Assembly (NCBI GenBank): GCA_028875575.1
Contig: JAPPDF010000095.1
Span: forward strand, 1 to 58,299
Direction of reading: 5' to 3'
Origin: Acidobacteriota bacterium
GTDB taxonomy: Bacteria; Acidobacteriota; Terriglobia; Versatilivoradales; Versatilivoraceae
DNA: 58,299 nucleotides
The notes beneath the pieces are model-generated. The model did not search any database. It worked only from the letters and a program-made list of their open reading frames with translations, and was not told the origin of the DNA. Positions 8,510 through 30,132 of the stretch are shown one piece after another. Position numbers and translations under genes: made by a program. Numbering within the stretch: position 1 is the first letter of the stretch; the number at the start of each line of letters is the position of its first letter.

Positions 8510-9700
8510 TCAAGATTTTAATGGGGCCTGCAGCCCCACCTGACTCCCCCCGCCATTGGGCCGGGCGCGGCGGCGCGATTTCTCCGCCGTCAGGGCCTGA
8601 ATGACCCGGGAAGCGGCGGCGGTCAGAGGATAGCGACCGGCCTGGCTAAGCCAGATCCAGCGTGCGCCCGGGATCGAAAGAGTCGGTGGCAGCGGAGGGT
8701 TCAGCCGGGCCTCAAACACCGTCAGAGTAATTCTCCGATTGGTGACGGCGTGCTTGATGGTGGTCAATGCGGGACCCAACCGAACCTTCAAGTCGAGTTC
8801 ACCCTGTATCTGTCTCACCAGGGAGCCGGCGAAGTCGGATCGACCGAATTCTCCCCCGGGGAACTCCCATAGATCCTGGAGCAACCGCGAGCCGCATCGC
8901 CTGCGTATCAGGAATCGACCCCGATGCCGGATCACCGCCGCGGCCTGACGGCTCAAAATCATTTCCGACCGCCTGCCTTTTTCCGGCAGCCGTTCCTGCA
9001 TGCCCGATTTCAAGGCTTCGCAATGGGAGGACCACGGGCACAGCAGGCAGCGTGGGTTGCGGGGCAGACAAACCGTCGCCCCCAACTCCATCAGGGCCTG
9101 GTTGAAATCCCCTGGCCTGCAGGCGGAAAGCAATTGCTGTCCGGCGGCAGCCAGCACTTTCTGCAGCGGCGACTTTGCGGGGTCACCCCTCAGACAGAAC
9201 AGTCGGCTCAGCACCCGAACCACGTTGCCATCCAGGGCCGCCAGCGGCTGGTCGAAAGCAATGCTGAGGATGGCGGCAGCCGTGTAGCGCCCGATTCCGG
9301 GCAGCCCCAAGGCCTCCCGATAGCTCCCGGGAAACTGCCCTCCATGCTCCCTCACCAGGATCCGGGCGGCCTTTTGAAGATTCCTGGCGCGGGAGTAGTA
9401 ACCCAGCCCAGCCCAGTTTCGCAGCAGATCCTGGGGGTCGGCGCCGGCCAGATCCTCGAGTGTGGGGAAAGCCTTCATGAACCGCAAGAAATAGGGCACG
9501 ACGGTTTGAACCTGGGTCTGCTGGAGCATCACTTCAGAGACCCAGACGGGGTAGAAGTCGCGTGATTCACGCCAGGGAAGTTGGCGCCGGTGCTGCTGAT
9601 ACCAAGCGAGCAGCCCGGTCTGCAGGCGATGGATTTCGGCAGGAGGGAGATGGACCGCTTCGGCCGCGGCCGGCTTCGACATACCAGCAGGATCTTCCAT
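8510..9700 (-). CDS. mutY: A/G-specific adenine glycosylase MutY
   Basis: MutY removes adenine mispaired with 8-oxoguanine. The protein of about 396 residues has the early LPWR motif, the EVMLQQTQV segment with the catalytic Glu, the helix-hairpin-helix LPGIGRYTAAAI, the following LDGNVVRVLSR with the catalytic Asp, and the iron-sulfur loop with cysteines spaced C-x6-C-x2-C-x5-C (CLPRNPRCLLCPWSSHC). A C-terminal NUDIX-like domain for 8-oxoG recognition follows from about residue 230. The open frame runs to 9928, but the first 76 residues are not family-like; ATG at 9700 or 9682 is more likely. Confidence 0.93.
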   Translation of the reverse strand: MEDPAGMSKPAAAEAVHLPPAEIHRLQTGLLAWYQQHRRQLPWRESRDFYPVWVSEVMLQQTQVQTVVPYFLRFMKAFPTLEDLAGADPQDLLRNWAGLGYYSRARNLQKAARILVREHGGQFPGSYREALGLPGIGRYTAAAILSIAFDQPLAALDGNVVRVLSRLFCLRGDPAKSPLQKVLAAAGQQLLSACRPGDFNQALMELGATVCLPRNPRCLLCPWSSHCEALKSGMQERLPEKGRRSEMILSRQAAAVIRHRGRFLIRRRCGSRLLQDLWEFPGGEFGRSDFAGSLVRQIQGELDLKVRLGPALTTIKHAVTNRRITLTVFEARLNPPLPPTLSIPGARWIWLSQAGRYPLTAAASRVIQALTAEKSRRRARPNGGGSQVGLQAPLKS

Positions 9701-9874
9701 CGTTTCCCGGCTGTCAAGGCCTTCAACCACAAACCTGTCGGCCGGGATCGATTCAGGGCCGTGTCGCGCTGTCCCCAACGTAGGGGCGCCTGGCTGTTCC
9801 GGTTCCCACGGAAACGAAGTCAGCAAAACCGGCCAGCCCGGCAAGGTTCTTTGGCGGCAGAAGCAAACCTGATG

Positions 9875-9883
9875 TGGTATAGT
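9875..9883 (+). promoter_or_regulatory. Candidate extended -10 promoter for coiled-coil gene
   Basis: TGGTATAGT is an extended -10 element on the plus strand in the region of about 320 bases that separates mutY from the divergent coiled-coil gene. No clear -35 hexamer lies 17 bases upstream. The rest of this region (9701-10019) shows nothing else recognisable. Confidence 0.35.
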
Positions 9884-10019
9884 GTCTTCTGCTGGCCGTG
9901 ACTGGTGTTTATCGACTCTGGCTGTCACCGGCGTGGCCGCACCTTTCTCCCTCTTTGGATTGAATCGTTTCCACGGGTTGGGTGAGCCGAATCACCCCAT
10001 CCGGAAAGGGAGAAAGTGG

Positions 10020-10427
10020 ATGCCAGCCTCGTACAAACCTGAAACCAGCGCAATTCATCGGGCCCTGATCGACAGCGGCGCGGACCCCAAGCTGATTCAT
10101 CCCGCCATCGAGGAGATACGTCATTTGAGCGGGCAGAATGTCACGACTGCCATCGGAGCTCAACTCACCGAACTTCGGTCCGACGTGCAAGCTCAGATCA
10201 CCGAACTTCGGTCTGAGTTGCAAGCTCCGATCACCGAACTTCGGTCTGAAATGCAAGCTCAGATCAACGGGCTGCAAGCTCAAATCAACGGGCTCCGGGC
10301 GGAGATGAAGGCTCAAATCAACGGGCTCCGGGCGGAGGTGAACACCCTGAACAAGGTGATCTGGCCGCTCATCAGCTTGCTGTTCATTCCCATGCTGGCC
10401 CTGGCTTACAAGATACTCACGCAGTGA
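10020..10427 (+). CDS. Membrane-anchored coiled-coil protein with 11-residue repeats
   Basis: This 135-residue protein begins at an ATG preceded by GGAAAGGGAG. The N-terminal 45 residues include IHRALIDSGADPKLIHPAIEE. The centre is a run of near-identical repeats of the type AQITELRSELQ, mostly eleven residues each, giving a hendecad coiled coil. The C-terminus VIWPLISLLFIPMLALAYKIL is a single membrane helix. The layout resembles DUF1640/CCDC90-like proteins, but that is only a topological similarity. It probably forms a homo-oligomeric rod anchored in the inner membrane; function unknown. Confidence 0.7.
   Translation: MPASYKPETSAIHRALIDSGADPKLIHPAIEEIRHLSGQNVTTAIGAQLTELRSDVQAQITELRSELQAPITELRSEMQAQINGLQAQINGLRAEMKAQINGLRAEVNTLNKVIWPLISLLFIPMLALAYKILTQ
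10158..10343 (+). repeat. In-frame 33-bp tandem repeats
   Basis: Five 33-base units start at 10158, 10191, 10224, 10278 and 10311, and one 21-base unit starts at 10257. They encode the coiled-coil repeats. Adjacent units are nearly identical in DNA (for example ATCACCGAACTTCGGTC recurs), showing recent expansion by slippage or unequal exchange. Confidence 0.85.
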
Positions 10428-10586
10428 GCCGAGAGGATTGGGGCCGGGAGAAGAGGTTCCCTTCGATAGCAGCCGGCGTCCACATGCCGGCAGCACCTTC
10501 CACGGTTCCCTGACGGTCCAATCCTTCCAACCCTGACACGACATTTCCATGGACAGGCACCTGGAAAGTTGCTAGATAGATAGGCC

Positions 10587-11636
10587 ATGGGTGCCTCCAT
10601 TGCCGAAATCGCCCGTTATCTCCAATGTCCCTTCCACGGGGACGGCTCCCTGCAAATCCAGCGGATCTCCAACTGGGATGAAGCCGACCGGACCTCACTG
10701 ATCTACTGCGAGGGCTCGTCCAGGGCTGCCGGCCTGCCCGATCAACTGACGGCCGGCTGCATCATCACCACCGCGGACATCCGGAGGTCGGACTGGAACA
10801 CTATCGTTTCCGAACGCCCCAAGCTGGACTTTTCCAATGCGGCCCGCCTGCTTCATCCCCGCCCGGCCGGACGGGGATTGCGGGATCCCTCCGCAGTAGT
10901 ATCCCCCGAGGCCGTCGTTGGACAGCAGGTGGACCTGGGACCTCACGTGGTGGTGGGGGCCGGGGCCCGGGTGGGCGACCGGTGCATACTGCACGCGGGC
11001 GTGGTGGTGGGAGAACGTTGCCGAATCGGCAGCGACACCATAATCCATCCCCGGGTGGTTCTCTATCCCGGCACGGAGCTGGGTTGCCGGGTGACACTGC
11101 ACGCCGGTGTGGTGTTGGGGTCCGACGGATTCGGCTACGTGTTCGACGGAGCCTCCCATATCAAGTTTCCGCAAGCTGGTGGGATTGTGATCGAGGACGA
11201 CGTGGAAATCGGAGCCAATACCACCGTGGATCGCGGCTCGCTGGGCATGACCCGCATCGGCCGGGGAAGCAAGATCGACAACCTGGTCCAGATCGCCCAT
11301 AACACCCAGATCGGTTCGGCGGTGATCATTGCCTCTCAGACGGGCATATCCGGCAGCGCCGTCATCGAAGACCAGGTGGTCATCGCCGGCCAAGCCGGGT
11401 TCGGTGAGCACATTCGGGTCAAAAAGGGCGCCGTCATCGGCGGACAGGCGGGGGTTCTGCCCGGGAAGATTCTGCCGGGCAACCAGGTCTATTGGGGAAC
11501 GCCCGCCCGTCCCCTGAGGGAGTTCAAGCGTATTCTGGCTCTCCTTCCCCGTCTTCCCCAGATGCGTTCGGAGCTGGAGCGATTGAAGAAACGCCTCGAT
11601 CAGCTCCTGCGGGAAAACGAGAATTCCGGCAAGTGA
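10587..11636 (+). CDS. lpxD: UDP-3-O-(3-hydroxyacyl)glucosamine N-acyltransferase LpxD
   Basis: LpxD adds the second 3-hydroxyacyl chain during lipid A synthesis. The 349-residue protein has an N-terminal uridine-binding domain (to about residue 100), then many hexapeptide repeats of a left-handed beta-helix. The catalytic His sits in [12 protein letters not shown], and [11 protein letters not shown] is the family-specific segment. The C-terminal helices with a Leu/Arg-rich end bind acyl-ACP. Other lpx genes are not in the window. Its presence shows an LPS-type outer membrane. Confidence 0.95.
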
Positions 11637-21373: not shown

Positions 21374-22816
21374 CTACCAGGGCAGTGAGAAGGTCTTGAC
21401 CGTGGACATGAACTTCATGGCCTCGATCACGCCTTCCTTGACTCCAAGCCCCGAATCCTTGACGCCGCCGAATGGGGTGGACTCGATTCGATAGCCCGGC
21501 ACCTGGTTGATGTTGACCGTCCCGGTGCGGATTCCCTTGACAGCCCGTATAGCTGCCTGGATATCCCGGGTCACCACCCCGGAGGAAAGCCCGTAAGCGG
21601 TGGCGTTGGCCAAGGCGATCCCGTCCTCCAGATCGCGGATGGCCAGGATGGGCGCCAGCGGCCCGAAGGACTCGTTGACCACCATCTCGCAGGTTCTGGG
21701 GACGTCCGCCACTACCGTGGGTTCCAGGAGAGCTCCTTTCCGCCGCCCGCCGCGGAGGATTCTGGCACCTGCCGCCACCGCTTCCTTCACCCGCCGCTCG
21801 AGCCCGGCCGCGGCTGCCTCGTCGATAACGGTGCCGACACGGGTGGTCCACTGTTCGGGGTCGCCCGAGGTGTATTCGCCGGTTTTCTCGACAAACAGCC
21901 GGGTGAAGGGCTCCAGCACCCTTTCGTGAACCAGTAGCCGCTTGACGGCGGTGCAGCGTTGACCGGAATTGCGATAGCACCCCTCGGCCGCCAGGCCGGC
22001 GGCCAGCTCCAGATCGGCGTCCTCCAGGATCAACAGGGGCGAGTTGCCTCCGAGCTCCAGGCACAACTTCTTGTAGCCGGCGATGGCGGCCAGGCGGTGG
22101 CCGACTGCTCCACTCCCGGTAAAGGTGACCGCCTCGATGCGGTCATGCTTGACCAGAGGCTCGGCGAATTCCTCGACGGAACCCAGCAGCACACTCAGCA
22201 TCGGCCCGGGAAGGCCGGCCTGGTAGAGCAATTCCGCAAATCGGATGGCCGCCAGAGGGGTCTTCTCCGACGGTTTCAGAATCAGGGGGGCTCCGGCAGC
22301 CACGGCCGGAGCGATCTTGTGCACCACCTGGTTCAGGGGATGATTGAAAGGCGCGATAGCCCCCACCAGGGGAACCGGCTCCCGCAGTGTGAAGATTTTC
22401 CGGGACTTGCCGTGAGTCGAGACATCTCCCGAAAACACCTGGCCTTCGTCCTTGAGAGCCTCGACCGCAGCGCATTGCAGCACGTCCAGCGCCCGTCCCA
22501 CCTCGTAGGTGGTGTCTCGCAGGCACAACCCGGACTCTCGCGTCACCAGCAGGGCGAATTCCTCGGACCGCTGCTGCAGGGCGGAACGGGCTTTCAGCAG
22601 AATTTCATGGCGCTGGTAGCGGGTCAGAGACCCTTTCCAGCCCAGCGCCTCCTCGCAGGCCCGGTCGAGGTGATCCCGGCCGGCCGTGGCGACAGCGCCC
22701 ACCAACTCGCCCGAATAGGGATTGAAGACCTCCAGGGCGTTGTGGGTCCGTAGCGGCTGTCCGGCCAGATAGCCGGGCAGATCCAGAGTTTCCTCGCGGG
22801 GCCGGCTGGGCGTCAT
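21374..22816 (-). CDS. phnY: Phosphonoacetaldehyde dehydrogenase PhnY
   Basis: This 480-residue member of the NAD(P)-dependent aldehyde dehydrogenase family should oxidise phosphonoacetaldehyde to phosphonoacetate. It shows the Asn of IAPFNHPLNQVVHK, the Glu of KKLCLELGGNSPL and the catalytic Cys of YRNSGQRCTAVKR. Assignment to phosphonoacetaldehyde rests on coupling to phnA: the start codon at 22816 overlaps the phnA stop (ATGA). A longer open frame reaching 23116 lies inside phnA and is rejected. Confidence 0.87.
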   Translation of the reverse strand: MTPSRPREETLDLPGYLAGQPLRTHNALEVFNPYSGELVGAVATAGRDHLDRACEEALGWKGSLTRYQRHEILLKARSALQQRSEEFALLVTRESGLCLRDTTYEVGRALDVLQCAAVEALKDEGQVFSGDVSTHGKSRKIFTLREPVPLVGAIAPFNHPLNQVVHKIAPAVAAGAPLILKPSEKTPLAAIRFAELLYQAGLPGPMLSVLLGSVEEFAEPLVKHDRIEAVTFTGSGAVGHRLAAIAGYKKLCLELGGNSPLLILEDADLELAAGLAAEGCYRNSGQRCTAVKRLLVHERVLEPFTRLFVEKTGEYTSGDPEQWTTRVGTVIDEAAAAGLERRVKEAVAAGARILRGGRRKGALLEPTVVADVPRTCEMVVNESFGPLAPILAIRDLEDGIALANATAYGLSSGVVTRDIQAAIRAVKGIRTGTVNINQVPGYRIESTPFGGVKDSGLGVKEGVIEAMKFMSTVKTFSLPW

Positions 22817-24051
22817 TGGGATCCTCCCTCGCAAAGATAGGCAAACAGGTCGAAATTTCTCGGGTCCCTGGCTGCTCCCGCCCGCGTTCCGGACTCGGAG
22901 AGCAGCAGGGGCACCGTTTCCTCGAAGCGGCCGCCATGGGACCTCAAGTCGCCCCTCAGAGGGCTCAGGTCGTGATACTCGGGCGTGCGGCCCATCACGA
23001 CATCCCGATCCGAAAACACCATCAGGTCCCCAATGCGGTCCGGCGGGAGCTCCAGACGGGTGGCCGCCTCCGGTCGCCTGCACACCTCGGTCACACCCTG
23101 ACGTCGAGACAGCCATTGGACCACGTCCTTCTCGGAAACTCCATCAGCCAAGTGAATCGTCACTGCCGACCCCAAGGCACCGTGGTGCACCACGTAGGGA
23201 TCGGTGATGGGGCAGATCACCGTCACACCCCCGCCAAACTGCTCCCGGAGCTCGCTCTCCAGGTAGATCACGTTGGGCCGGCCGTCGGGTTTGGTCTTGG
23301 CATTCATTCCATGATCCGCCGTGGCTCCGACGACGGCGCCCAACCCCAGCAGGCGGCCCAACTGGTGGTCGATGGCTTCATAGAAGTCCAGCGCCTCGGG
23401 AGCCGACGGTGCATGGCGGTGTTGCACGTAGTCGGTCAGCGACAGATAGAGGAAGTCCGACTGGCGGCTCTCCAACAGGGACACGCCGGCGCGCAAGACG
23501 AACAGGCTGGCCTCGGCGCTGTAGATGTCGGGACTGCCCTCCCGGACGGTCTCCGCCAGACTCTCCAGACCCGGAAGATCCAGCATCTGCTCGCCGGCCC
23601 GCTCCGACGAAAAAGCAATTCCCTGAAGTCCGCGGGTCAACAGGTCGCGCAGTTTTTCCTTGGCCGTCACCATGGCCACCTTCCTTCCCGAACGGGCGGC
23701 GGCCGCCAGGATGGTGTCGCACCGCAGGTAGCGGGCCGAGTTCATCATGACCTCGGCGCCGCTTCGGGGATCGAGAAAGAAGTTGCCGGAAATACCTGTG
23801 ACGGAAGGAGGAACACCGGTGACGATACAGGCGTTGTTGACGTTGGTGTAGGTGGGCAGAGCTGCCCGGGCCAGCCCCCGGTAGCCGCCGGCAGCCATTC
23901 GGGCCAGGTGGGGCATGCAGCCCCGGGAGAGCGCCACCGTCAGGTAGTCGTCCTCGCAGCCGTCCATGCAGATCGCTACCACCGGCTTGGCCGGCGGCTC
24001 GTACCGGCGGCCGTTAACGGAGAAGGGTGAAGTGGAGAAGGTTGCATTCAT
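22813..24051 (-). CDS. phnA: Phosphonoacetate hydrolase PhnA
   Basis: This zinc-dependent member of the alkaline-phosphatase superfamily cleaves phosphonoacetate to acetate and phosphate. The 412-residue protein has the first metal Asp in VVAICMDGCEDDYL, the Thr nucleophile in LPTYTNVNNACIVTG, the metal-ligand region LSLTDYVQHRHA, and GATADHGMNAK with Asp-His. The C-terminal LRSHGGRFEETVPLL carries the last His. These features distinguish it from plain phosphodiesterases. It is followed by the overlapping phnY gene and preceded by a transporter gene at 18 bases. Confidence 0.92.
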   Translation of the reverse strand: MNATFSTSPFSVNGRRYEPPAKPVVAICMDGCEDDYLTVALSRGCMPHLARMAAGGYRGLARAALPTYTNVNNACIVTGVPPSVTGISGNFFLDPRSGAEVMMNSARYLRCDTILAAAARSGRKVAMVTAKEKLRDLLTRGLQGIAFSSERAGEQMLDLPGLESLAETVREGSPDIYSAEASLFVLRAGVSLLESRQSDFLYLSLTDYVQHRHAPSAPEALDFYEAIDHQLGRLLGLGAVVGATADHGMNAKTKPDGRPNVIYLESELREQFGGGVTVICPITDPYVVHHGALGSAVTIHLADGVSEKDVVQWLSRRQGVTEVCRRPEAATRLELPPDRIGDLMVFSDRDVVMGRTPEYHDLSPLRGDLRSHGGRFEETVPLLLSESGTRAGAARDPRNFDLFAYLCEGGSQ

Positions 24052-24069
24052 GGTTGTTGGGTGCAGCAG

Positions 24070-25332
24070 CTACCTCCGGACAAAGAGTGCAATCGCCCCG
24101 CTGAGCAGGCAGGCGCCGGCCACCAGCGGAAACACCAGACCGGTGTCGTCACCGCTCCGTTGGATCATCCATCCGATGAAGGGCTCTCCCAGTCCCGCCA
24201 GCAGGTAGGCATGCATGTTCATGATTCCGGTGCCGGTGCCCGCGTAACGGGTCCCCAGCAGATCGGGGCACAGAGCCCAGAACGCCGACTGGGGGCCGTA
24301 GGTGAAGAACCCGCAAAGTGCCAGCAATGTCATGGACCAAAAGAAATGGTACGGCAACAGGTACATGGCGGTGCAGGCCAGGGAGGCAGCCGTCATGAAC
24401 AGGAAGATGACCCGCGACCGATTGGAATGAAAGACCCGGTCGGACAGCCAGCCGCTGCTTACGGCACCCAGGGCCATGCCTGCCGGCAGCGCCACGGTGA
24501 TCCAGGTCCGACCGGCAAAGCCTCGCCAGCCCGCCCCCAGAAAGTGGACCGGCACCCAGGTCAACAGGCCGTAGCGGGCCAGGCTCTGGAAACCGATGGC
24601 CAGGCTGGCGATCATGAAGCGCCAATTGGAACACACCTGCCGGTAACGATGCCAGGTGGTTTCTTCGTTGTCTTCCTTTCCTTGGGGCGCGGACCTGCCT
24701 TCAGCCGGATTGTCTTCCAGGTGATTCGACTCGGAGAAACCGAGTTCCTCGGGGCGGTCACGAGCTACCCGGAAGTAGAACGCTCCGCCCAGCAGAAGCA
24801 GCAGCACCGGGAGACGAAAGATCCAGCGCCAGTTCAAATCCAGGGCCAGAATGAGATTGGAGGTGGTGAATGCCAGAACGGAGGACAGACCGGCCGCGCC
24901 AACGTAAAGACCGTAGACCTTCCCTCGCTCCCGGCGGCTCCACCAATTGGACAGCACCCGACTCCCCGGGGCCCAGCCCATGGACTGCGCGTAGCCGTTG
25001 ATGGCCCAGGGAACCAACAGGCTCACCAAGCCGCCGGCGAAACTGACCCCCCAATTGAACATACAGGAGAGCAGCGCCCCCAGGCTCATCATCCGGCGAC
25101 CACCGAAACGATCCCCCAGGTTCCCGTTGACGGCCTGCCCGGCGGCATAGCTCCACAACATGGCGCTGCTGACCCACCCCAGACCGGCTTTGCCGATGCC
25201 CAGTTCCTGCTCTATGCCCGGAATGGCGAAACCGAAGGTCTGCCGGCCGGTGTAGTAGAACAGGTAGCAGAGCATGGTGGCACAAAGAATACGCCACTGA
25301 GCCCGCCGAAACCGACGGTTCTCTTCCGCCAT
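24070..25332 (-). CDS. MFS transporter, GlpT/OPA-like, probable phosphonate importer
   Basis: This protein of about 420 residues has around twelve hydrophobic segments. The first helix region YLFYYTGRQTFGFAIPG resembles organophosphate:phosphate antiporters (GlpT/UhpT type), in which an Arg in helix 1 binds the phosphoryl group, and GDRFGGRRMMSLG is the MFS loop motif. A hydrophilic loop rich in acidic and polar residues separates the two six-helix halves. As first gene of the phnA-phnY-hpnZ run it probably brings in the phosphonate substrate. The ATG at 25332 is preferred; one at 25368 would add a twelve-residue Arg-rich tail. Confidence 0.83.
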   Translation of the reverse strand: MAEENRRFRRAQWRILCATMLCYLFYYTGRQTFGFAIPGIEQELGIGKAGLGWVSSAMLWSYAAGQAVNGNLGDRFGGRRMMSLGALLSCMFNWGVSFAGGLVSLLVPWAINGYAQSMGWAPGSRVLSNWWSRRERGKVYGLYVGAAGLSSVLAFTTSNLILALDLNWRWIFRLPVLLLLLGGAFYFRVARDRPEELGFSESNHLEDNPAEGRSAPQGKEDNEETTWHRYRQVCSNWRFMIASLAIGFQSLARYGLLTWVPVHFLGAGWRGFAGRTWITVALPAGMALGAVSSGWLSDRVFHSNRSRVIFLFMTAASLACTAMYLLPYHFFWSMTLLALCGFFTYGPQSAFWALCPDLLGTRYAGTGTGIMNMHAYLLAGLGEPFIGWMIQRSGDDTGLVFPLVAGACLLSGAIALFVRR

Positions 25333-25467
25333 GTCCGGCCCGCGCCTGACGCCGGGTCGTTGGTGCATGATGGCTACTTACGGGTCTTCAGCAACTTCTC
25401 GGGAATTTTGGGGGATCCTGCGGAAACAGTGAATGTCGAGCGCGCCTACGAGGGCTTCATGGCGCAA

Positions 25468-26607: not shown

Positions 26608-26931
26608 CTACACGTGGAAGGACTCGCCGCACCCGCAGGTGCTCTTGACGTTGGGGTTGTGGAACTTGAAGCCGGCGCCGGTGAGGCTTTCGATGTAGTC
26701 GATCTCGGTTCCGTCCAGATAGATCATGCTCCCCTTGTCGACGAAGACCTTGAAGCCCTGCAACTCCAGAATCTCATCCCCACCGTTGGCTTTCTTTTCG
26801 AAGCCCATCTGATACTGAAAGCCCGAACACCCGCCGCCGACGATCTGCACTCGCAGGCCGGCGTATTGCTCCTGCTGGCTGTCCAGTATTTCCTTGACCT
26901 TACCCTGCGCTTTCTCGGTGATGTTCAGCAT
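26608..26931 (-). CDS. erpA: A-type iron-sulfur carrier (ErpA/HesB family)
   Basis: This 107-residue protein binds and delivers Fe-S clusters to apo-enzymes. The three conserved cysteines are visible: GGGCSGFQYQM and the C-terminal STCGCGESF. No isc/suf genes flank it. The neighbouring MoaA, [2Fe-2S] protein and radical SAM protein are all cluster-dependent clients, which makes its location fitting. ErpA and IscA subfamilies cannot be separated with certainty by eye. Confidence 0.9.
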   Translation of the reverse strand: MLNITEKAQGKVKEILDSQQEQYAGLRVQIVGGGCSGFQYQMGFEKKANGGDEILELQGFKVFVDKGSMIYLDGTEIDYIESLTGAGFKFHNPNVKSTCGCGESFHV

Positions 26932-28086: not shown

Positions 28087-30132
28087 TTACTTGGAAGGAA
28101 CCGAGATCTGGACCAGTTCGTCCGGCTTCTTGTTGAGCACCATTTCCTCGTAGACCTTGCGCATCTTGGCCTCCTCCCGGGCCGCCTTCCTGCGCATCCG
28201 CGCCTCGTCGGACGCCGTCTGCGGAGCATCTTCCAGGACTCTCACTCTGGCGGCATCCTCGGAGTCCACCTTGAGAAGGTGCTCGTAGCTCTCCAGGTTC
28301 ACATTCTTGCCCTTGGCGAACACCTCGTGTTTCCCACGCTCCCTGTACCACTCGGCCACGGTCGCGTTCTTGTGCATGTTCTCGATGATCTTGCGCCATC
28401 CCACCCCGGTGTTGTAGGCGCAGAAGGAGATCTCTCCTTCCTGGGTGGCATAGGGAATGATGCACATCTCGGTACGCCGGAAGTCGTAGTTGAAGAGATC
28501 CTGGAACCACATTCCCGCGATAAAGAGGAAATTCCAGGGATCCTCGCGGCGCTTCTTAATGTCGTCCAGGGTTCGGCTGGGGTCCGACCTGCCGTATTTT
28601 TCGTCGGCCTTGCCGGAGGTGTTCCAGGTCTTGTCGAACTTCTTGAGGATATCGGAGAGGGTCAGACTTGGCGGCGCCTTGAAGGGCGAATAGTTCTTCA
28701 GCAGCGCCATGGCCATCAGGAAGTTGGAGAAGGTCTTGCCACGAGCCGCGTCGGTAATCATGCTCATGTCGCGCATCAATCCGGGAACATTGATGAACTG
28801 GGGAACGGCCGCTACCTCTTTGTTCTCCTTGTTGATCATCACGGCCGTGCCCACACCGCAGTTGGGGTGGCAGCCGCAACTGAAGGTTCCCCATTCCCGG
28901 TCGGGGCCGTGGACCAGGTCGGCGTAGTCGGCAAAGCCGCCCATGATCGAGATCGGGAACCAGTCCCGGGTCGGCTCCGCAATCCCGGTCTGTTCCTTCA
29001 CGTCGCTGGCCATGTGTGACAGGGTGTAACGCTGCCGGTGCCGGCGATCGGGGGTGATCTCCTCGTCCCGGCCGGTGAAGGAGACCGGCTGGAAGGAGAT
29101 GAAGGAGATCTTCTTGGGGTTGTCCATGGCGAACCGGATTATGGGGCCAACCTGGTCGTTGTTGACGCCGTTGATCAGAGTGGTCACCAGAACAATCTCG
29201 ATGCCGGCTTCGTGCATGTTGTTGATCGCTCTCAGCTTGACGTCGAAGAGATTGCCGATCTGACGGTGGCTGTTGGCGTCGTTGCCGATCCCGTCGAACT
29301 GCAGGTAGGCATAGCGAAGGCCGGCCTCGGCGGCCTTGCGCGAAAACTCCTTGCTCTTGGCGAATTCAATGCCGTTGGTGGCCGCCTGCACGCTGTTGTA
29401 TCCCAGGTCGCGCGCCAACTTGACCGCCTTCAGAAAGTAGGGGGACATGGTCGGCTCTCCGCCGGAGAACTGAATGGACATCTGCCTCCTGGGCTTGATT
29501 TCCAGGGCGTTGGTCATGATCTCATGGATGTCTTCCCAACTGAGCTCGTGAACATAGCCCACTTGGTTGGCATCCATGAAACAGGGGTCGCACATCATGT
29601 TGCAGCGGTTGGTAAGGTCCACGGTCAGGACCGATCCCCTGCCGTACTTGATGGTGCTGGTGCCGTGCTTGTGCAACCGCTCGTCGTTGTGAGCCCGGAT
29701 ATCGCGGCCGGGGAAGTTGCCCTCGATCCAGCGCAGAAAGGATACGTCCTTGGCTATCATGTCCTCGAACTTGCCGCACTTCGGACATTCCTTGACCATC
29801 CAGACCTCGCCGTTCCGTTCGACGATCTCGGCCTTGATTTCACCCACGTGCTCGGTCACCAGCGATTGCCAGTCCTGCTCTCCGTTGATGATCCGCTCTC
29901 TGGCCTCCATCACGCAGACCGGGCACAGAGAGTCGGTGGTTCTGGGGAACCCCAGGGTGGGCTTGGACTTCTCCCAGGACTTCTGCAGGGGCTTGTCCGA
30001 CCATTTGGGCGTAAAAGATGCATTGGGGAAATACTTGTTGAAGAACTGGACGGAGTTGAAGACAACGCCGGCCGCCGAACATGCGGCGGAGTCCACGTAC
30101 TTCATGAGGCGCTTGCTTGTTGCGCTAGACAT
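28087..30132 (-). CDS. Radical SAM protein of the Tes / membrane-spanning lipid synthase type
   Basis: The 681-residue protein has an N-terminal pair of CxxC motifs (C70/C73 in CPVC and C116/C119 in CPKC), suited to a rubredoxin-like mononuclear metal site. The radical SAM motif CNMMCDPC (C177, C181, C184) and SGGEPTMSP follow. Further cysteines in SCGCHPNCGVG, MCIIPYA and ISFCAYN could hold auxiliary clusters. This layout matches the archaeal tetraether synthase Tes (MJ0619) family and its bacterial homologues proposed to join fatty-acyl tails into membrane-spanning iso-diabolic-type lipids in Acidobacteriota. The N-terminus begins with about 45 extra residues including a hydrophobic patch, perhaps for membrane contact. 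A pterin-dimethyltransferase-like role is the main alternative. A GGAG ribosome binding site precedes the ATG. Confidence 0.68.
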   Translation of the reverse strand: MSSATSKRLMKYVDSAACSAAGVVFNSVQFFNKYFPNASFTPKWSDKPLQKSWEKSKPTLGFPRTTDSLCPVCVMEARERIINGEQDWQSLVTEHVGEIKAEIVERNGEVWMVKECPKCGKFEDMIAKDVSFLRWIEGNFPGRDIRAHNDERLHKHGTSTIKYGRGSVLTVDLTNRCNMMCDPCFMDANQVGYVHELSWEDIHEIMTNALEIKPRRQMSIQFSGGEPTMSPYFLKAVKLARDLGYNSVQAATNGIEFAKSKEFSRKAAEAGLRYAYLQFDGIGNDANSHRQIGNLFDVKLRAINNMHEAGIEIVLVTTLINGVNNDQVGPIIRFAMDNPKKISFISFQPVSFTGRDEEITPDRRHRQRYTLSHMASDVKEQTGIAEPTRDWFPISIMGGFADYADLVHGPDREWGTFSCGCHPNCGVGTAVMINKENKEVAAVPQFINVPGLMRDMSMITDAARGKTFSNFLMAMALLKNYSPFKAPPSLTLSDILKKFDKTWNTSGKADEKYGRSDPSRTLDDIKKRREDPWNFLFIAGMWFQDLFNYDFRRTEMCIIPYATQEGEISFCAYNTGVGWRKIIENMHKNATVAEWYRERGKHEVFAKGKNVNLESYEHLLKVDSEDAARVRVLEDAPQTASDEARMRRKAAREEAKMRKVYEEMVLNKKPDELVQISVPSK

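Follow-up and report, generated by a model that had tools for sequence, protein, structure and literature searches.

The gene designated P0001 lies in a 58,299-nt stretch of DNA (the window, that is, the whole of the sequence analysed, to which all positions below refer unless another contig is named) from an Acidobacteriota bacterium (GCA_028875575.1, contig JAPPDF010000095.1). It encodes a Tes-like radical SAM protein of what we term type A (Table 1). Its cysteines are C18, C70, C73, C116, C119, C177, C181, C184, C419, C421, C425, C557 and C571. The layout singled out by a sequence-only reading of this DNA (CxxC-CxxC, C177NMMC181DPC184 and a Cys-rich C-terminus) is indeed present and is far beyond chance; nearly all of these cysteines are invariant in 113 type-A sequences, which were drawn from two collections with some genomes in common. 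The N-terminal extension is predicted to form a helix that may possibly contact the membrane.

Besides the two iron-sulfur genes listed in Table 1, a MoaA gene is found downstream of P0001 on the same strand. Only in the four closest relatives (L037–L040) does the gene for the 325-aa [2Fe-2S] protein directly follow type A, with one short motif match elsewhere; the protein is plausibly a candidate electron donor in this clade and not a general partner. A conserved lipid operon around type A was sought and not found in the neighbourhoods compared, and there was no Rfam match to a structured RNA within the window. Genes for PhnA (phosphonoacetate hydrolase) and an MFS phosphate-ester-type transporter lie side by side at 22813–25368 on the minus strand; L037 and L039 have the same pair downstream of their type-A gene, and phosphonate use is possible.

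Table 1. Position of P0001, its parts and its downstream neighbours in the window
Feature	Position	Strand	Evidence
P0001, Tes-like radical SAM protein, type A, 681 aa	28087..30132	-	ORF, ATG start, profile matches
P0001 N-terminal extension, predicted helix (residues 3-32), not in MjTes	30037..30126	-	model
P0001 rubredoxin-like site, first knuckle C70xxC73	29914..29925	-	alignment
P0001 rubredoxin-like site, second knuckle C116xxC119 (CxxH in nearly all relatives)	29776..29787	-	alignment
P0001 linker, residues 140-176, conserved HxHG, no Cys; position of the Tes N-terminal [4Fe-4S] ligands C73/C77/C80	29605..29715	-	alignment
P0001 radical SAM cluster motif C177xxxC181xxC184	29581..29604	-	alignment
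P0001 C419xC421xxxC425, extra invariant CxC and first C-terminal auxiliary cluster ligand (MjTes C338)	28858..28878	-	alignment
P0001 M541, counterpart of MjTes labile ligand Met439	28510..28512	-	alignment
P0001 C557, C-terminal cluster ligand (MjTes C455)	28462..28464	-	alignment
P0001 Y561, counterpart of conserved MjTes Tyr459	28450..28452	-	alignment
P0001 C571, C-terminal cluster ligand (MjTes C470)	28420..28422	-	alignment
325-aa protein, C-terminal plant-type [2Fe-2S] domain, downstream of P0001	27009..27986	-	Pfam
A-type Fe-S carrier (ErpA/IscA family), third gene in same-strand run	26608..26931	-	Pfam, NCBIfam

Family, fold and metal sites of P0001

Searches of NCBIfam gave Tes (NF045702) as the best family for P0001 (E 9.6e-96), the score of 321.3 bits lying under the equivalog cut-off of 450. 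Among sequences in the PDB the top match was MjTes (E 3.8e-62, 32% identity), followed by MoaA (E 3.7e-8). A model was built with AlphaFold2 fed 50 relatives (pLDDT 73.3, pTM 0.81), in which pLDDT falls below 50 at residues 145–166, 178–194 and 544–577, near the cluster-binding stretches. Foldseek placed the archaeal GDGT-MAS structures 7tom and 7tol first (E 5e-24, TMt 0.75–0.77; next match 3e-6). With VIA-align, 462 and 466 of the roughly 495 residues of these two structures aligned with the model (Z 28.3 and 25.2, respectively) and MoaA gave Z 18.2 over 275 residues, so that the fold match reaches past the common radical SAM core. The overall MjTes fold, including the helical lipid-binding cap, is reproduced in the model, with low local confidence around the clusters. 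In the tree, type A falls together with two related groups, A2 and B, on one fully supported branch of length 2.79 nested among Tes-like sequences, the branching order among long branches being uncertain, A2 not forming a clean group and one sequence, L125_B, being misplaced or misassigned.

The metal sites were compared in a MAFFT alignment of P0001, MjTes and relatives, the MjTes ligands being taken from the structure paper (PMC9433317). The radical SAM cysteines C177, C181 and C184 align with MjTes C98, C102 and C105. The rubredoxin-like CxxC...CxxH site is present with Cys for His36, a conservative ligand change; the second knuckle is CxxH in 112 of the 113 type-A relatives and in archaeal Tes, and Cys is found only in P0001 and L038. 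The C-terminal auxiliary [4Fe-4S] site is complete, C425, C557, C571 and M541 aligning with three cysteines and the labile Met439 of MjTes, and the MjTes loop residues Q268, S271 and R275 together with Tyr459 are all kept (Q348, S351, R355 and Y561).

The exception is the N-terminal auxiliary [4Fe-4S] cluster. None of its cysteines (MjTes C73, C77 and C80, with a His) is found in P0001, where the columns hold a gap, H156 and S159. The same cysteines are absent from 113/113 type-A, 7/7 A2 and 10/10 type-B sequences (130 acidobacterial sequences) and are kept in 18/18 sequences of a further type, C; a conserved HxHG takes the place of the cluster in A, A2 and B. In addition C419 and C421, adjoining C425, are invariant across A, A2 and B. 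These proteins have some 60–70 residues or more ahead of the first CxxC, compared with 8 in MjTes (published numbering), and their C-termini are also longer. One type-C sequence that branches beside A and B (L142, G101:C102) has both the extra CxC and the N-terminal cluster ligands and may be an intermediate; the first Cys of the extra CxC also occurs in four other type-C sequences (L137–L140). This pattern suggests, subject to the uncertain branching order, that the CxC was gained before the N-terminal cluster was lost.

Membership of P0001 in the Tes superfamily, and its place in a divergent bacterial subfamily, both suggested from sequence alone, are thus well supported by profile, fold, tree, catalytic residues and distribution (below). 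P0001 nevertheless departs from Tes in detail, one of the four metallocentres being absent and the equivalog cut-off lying above the score.

Distribution of the three types and the ether question

We sampled 199 Acidobacteriota genomes and typed matches by score with hand-set thresholds; the class and family names of these genomes are inferred. Type A (including A2) was found in about 87 of the 199, type B in 20 and type C in 29. Only three genomes carry A and C together and 70 carry type A alone. All 20 sampled genomes of the host class have type A, and its named hosts include Pyrinomonadaceae, Aridibacter (MAGs) and Solibacteraceae. Type A is accordingly phylum-wide in Acidobacteriota. Identity to MjTes is 29–34% for type A and 36–44% for type C. 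Plasmid-borne relatives amounted to distant haloarchaeal matches and one match in Persicobacter. Selenocysteine was considered for in-frame TGA/TAG codons in the type-B genes of family f29 and rejected, the stops being natural C-termini.

The nearest named relative of P0001 comes from Acidobacteria bacterium SB0661_bin_38 (98% protein identity); three more are 94–95% identical, one of them titled Terriglobia. Judging by isolate names we take this clade to be sponge-associated. The host also has a type-B paralogue (G000:C100:97154-98947, L117:6044-8056; 54% identity to P0001), and the A and B pair is common to the host and its four closest relatives. Directly downstream of the host type-B gene, on the same strand, lies a PhyH-family dioxygenase gene. 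In two genomes of one genus A and C are a few kb apart (G121:C21, at L144:3995-6154 and 9576-11231, and G073:C24); these are the only type-C members of their sampled family and have two matches each to PF09989.

PF09989 is part of PlsA/Ger. Its profile matches in T. maritima, used as a control, and gave no match in the host genome or in those of the four closest relatives. With PlsA/Ger lacking from the host genome, the products are by default predicted to be ester-bound. Strong PF09989 matches occur in 18 of the 29 genomes with type C versus 8 of the 170 without it (odds ratio 33, p 2e-12, p-values here ignoring relatedness among genomes), and in 2 of 84 genomes with type A and no C versus 24 of 115 others. 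Counted by family, 11 of 12 type-C families have PF09989 in a C-bearing genome, and 9 of 32 type-A families have it in a genome bearing A and lacking C. The exception among type-C families is f5, which adjoins A and B in the tree. Type C, then, co-occurs with the PlsA/Ger family and type A does not; since PF09989 is also found in other proteins, we regard the association as a lead and not as proof.

The host carries fatty acyl-CoA reductases and two proteins combining AMP-ligase, carrier and acyltransferase; the full ElbD domain set was not found in any one host protein. Sponge Acidobacteriota have been reported with ElbD-like ether-lipid clusters (PMC9426513) and, taken with the host proteins, this makes an Elb-like ether route in the host possible. 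Three PF02913 matches, two of them adjoining, were considered as alkylglycerone phosphate synthase and set aside as probable subunits of glycolate oxidase and a probable lactate dehydrogenase.

Elsewhere in the host genome a tandem pair of B12-binding radical SAM proteins carrying DUF4070 (L169:3311-6888, G000:C82) adjoins a dehydrogenase/carrier protein of polyketide type and a fusion of fatty acyl reductase and sulfotransferase, and is possibly part of an undescribed lipid or polyketide cluster. Another region (L168:4539-18180, G000:C54) encodes myo-inositol-1-phosphate synthase, a HAD-fatty acyl reductase fusion, a second reductase, a pyruvyl-transferase-like protein and two AMP-ligases, followed by a lipid kinase and an acyltransferase (L172); it looks like an unusual lipid pathway.

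Proposed function

We propose that P0001 is a Tes-superfamily radical SAM carbon-carbon coupling enzyme and a candidate iso-diabolic-acid synthase, a reading to which we give a probability of roughly 70% and in which reaction, substrate and product are inferred from residues, model and analogy. As in MjTes, SAM would be cleaved reductively at the CxxxCxxC cluster to yield a 5'-deoxyadenosyl radical. An iso-C15 acyl tail would lose a hydrogen from its terminal carbon to this radical, and the substrate radical so formed would be held at the C-terminal auxiliary [4Fe-4S] cluster (C425, C557, C571 and the labile M541). With no N-terminal cluster at its surface, P0001 must receive electrons in another way than archaeal Tes. 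Pyrinomonas is rich in iso-diabolic acid and also has ethers (PMC4644332), and iso-diabolic acid makes up 12–30% in Edaphobacter strains, with no ethers seen in that study (PMC11354219); the overlap of type-A hosts with these iso-diabolic-rich lineages counts for the proposed role. The sequence-only expectation of iso-diabolic-type lipids thus gains backing from profile, fold, tree, residues and distribution, and is weakened by the score under the equivalog cut-off, by the missing metallocentre, by a gene neighbourhood in which no lipid operon was found and by the low confidence of the model around the clusters.

The enzyme could instead be a Tes-family coupling enzyme with another target, such as a ring-closing second coupling, a chain cross-link as in GMGT-like lipids of bacteria, or chains different from iso-C15; type B would then make the bulk of the iso-diabolic acid. 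The presence of both types in the host and its closest relatives, with catalytic residues kept in each, speaks for this, and the type-B paralogue could be the real coupling enzyme of the host. As type A is far more widespread than type B (87 versus 20 sampled genomes) and often occurs alone, however, it must by itself explain iso-diabolic acid in most producing lineages if the family is responsible, and we consider a different target unlikely.

Still less probable, in our estimate, is a radical SAM enzyme of some other function: a TrsS-like protein, a pterin methyltransferase or an enzyme of lipid methylation at C5/C6. TrsS is the second NCBIfam family (226.8 bits, under its cut-off of 490), and the Pfam matches are Radical_SAM and Zn_ribbon_HMPTM, the latter covering the N-terminal zinc ribbon only. 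The HMPTM name, though, goes back to an earlier annotation of MJ0619 that is judged wrong in the structure paper (PMC9433317), and the match in P0001 is a consequence of that annotation. Tes outscores TrsS, and other radical SAM families, the intein-containing Tes model aside, reach at most 71 bits. P0001 retains the C-terminal cluster of Tes as well as its Met and Tyr, and the fold match covers the whole length of MjTes, so that a placement with pterin methyltransferases or other radical SAM groups, which would have spoken against the sequence-only reading, was not borne out. That P0001 is an inactive or degenerate relic of Tes, as the loss of one of four metallocentres might hint, is very improbable, given that the loss is shared and old and that catalytic residues are invariant in type-A orthologues 55–98% identical across 32 families.

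Returning to the coupling enzyme, type A is the best candidate, on the comparisons made here, for iso-diabolic acid synthesis in Acidobacteria. The matter bears on soil and lake palaeothermometers, for which it is still asked which bacteria make iso-diabolic acid and branched GDGTs and by which enzyme. More tentatively, and with more doubt than confidence, we suggest that A and B form a separate class of bacterial membrane-spanning lipid synthases. It would have arisen inside Tes by gain of the CxC and then loss of the N-terminal cluster, with HxHG in its place and another means of electron delivery; it would act on ester phospholipids of largely aerobic bacteria and be split from the Ger-associated type C, which would make ether brGDGTs. 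If so, one of the four archaeal Tes metallocentres is dispensable for the coupling chemistry.

Comparison with known systems

Like archaeal Tes/GDGT-MAS (MJ0619, 7TOL/7TOM), P0001 has the radical SAM core, the rubredoxin-like site, the C-terminal cluster, the Q/S/R loop, the Tyr459 counterpart and the fold; unlike it, P0001 is without the N-terminal [4Fe-4S] ligands, has the extra invariant CxC, an N-terminal extension of about 60 residues and a longer C-terminus, and presumably acts on bacterial ester lipids. The Mss of Thermotoga maritima reportedly yields diabolic or iso-diabolic acid (Sahonero-Canavesi, 2022). This bacterial enzyme is said to share the catalytic architecture of Tes and a SAM cofactor site (PMC13274423). 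The archaeal GMGT synthase Gms also couples sp3 carbons of lipid chains by radical SAM chemistry with auxiliary clusters, and differs, by description, in belonging to the SPASM proteins and in having a beta-hairpin and a helical domain at its N-terminus (PMC11186832).

A role in brGDGT synthesis was put forward for Tes homologues of bacteria by Zeng 2022 (PMC8941075), and Halamka 2022 suggest one or both of the homologues in Solibacter (PMC10087280), so that the general idea is already known; according to a 2025 paper the activity of these homologues is unconfirmed (PMC11868695). The top bacterial homologues were those of Koribacter (42%) and Solibacter (40%), and E. aggregans, a producer of iso-diabolic acid and brGDGTs, has a single homologue at 32% identity (PMC8941075). 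By identity level the last probably corresponds to type A and the former two to type C, a correspondence that is suggestive only since the query of Zeng was another archaeal Tes and not MjTes. The available portions of Zeng 2022 and Halamka 2022, which treat Edaphobacter, Koribacter and Solibacter, describe neither a split into two types nor a missing cluster. Set beside these systems, with Mss compared by description only, what the present sequence comparison adds is the anatomy of the variant, its fixed phylum-wide occurrence and its separation from the Ger-associated type C.
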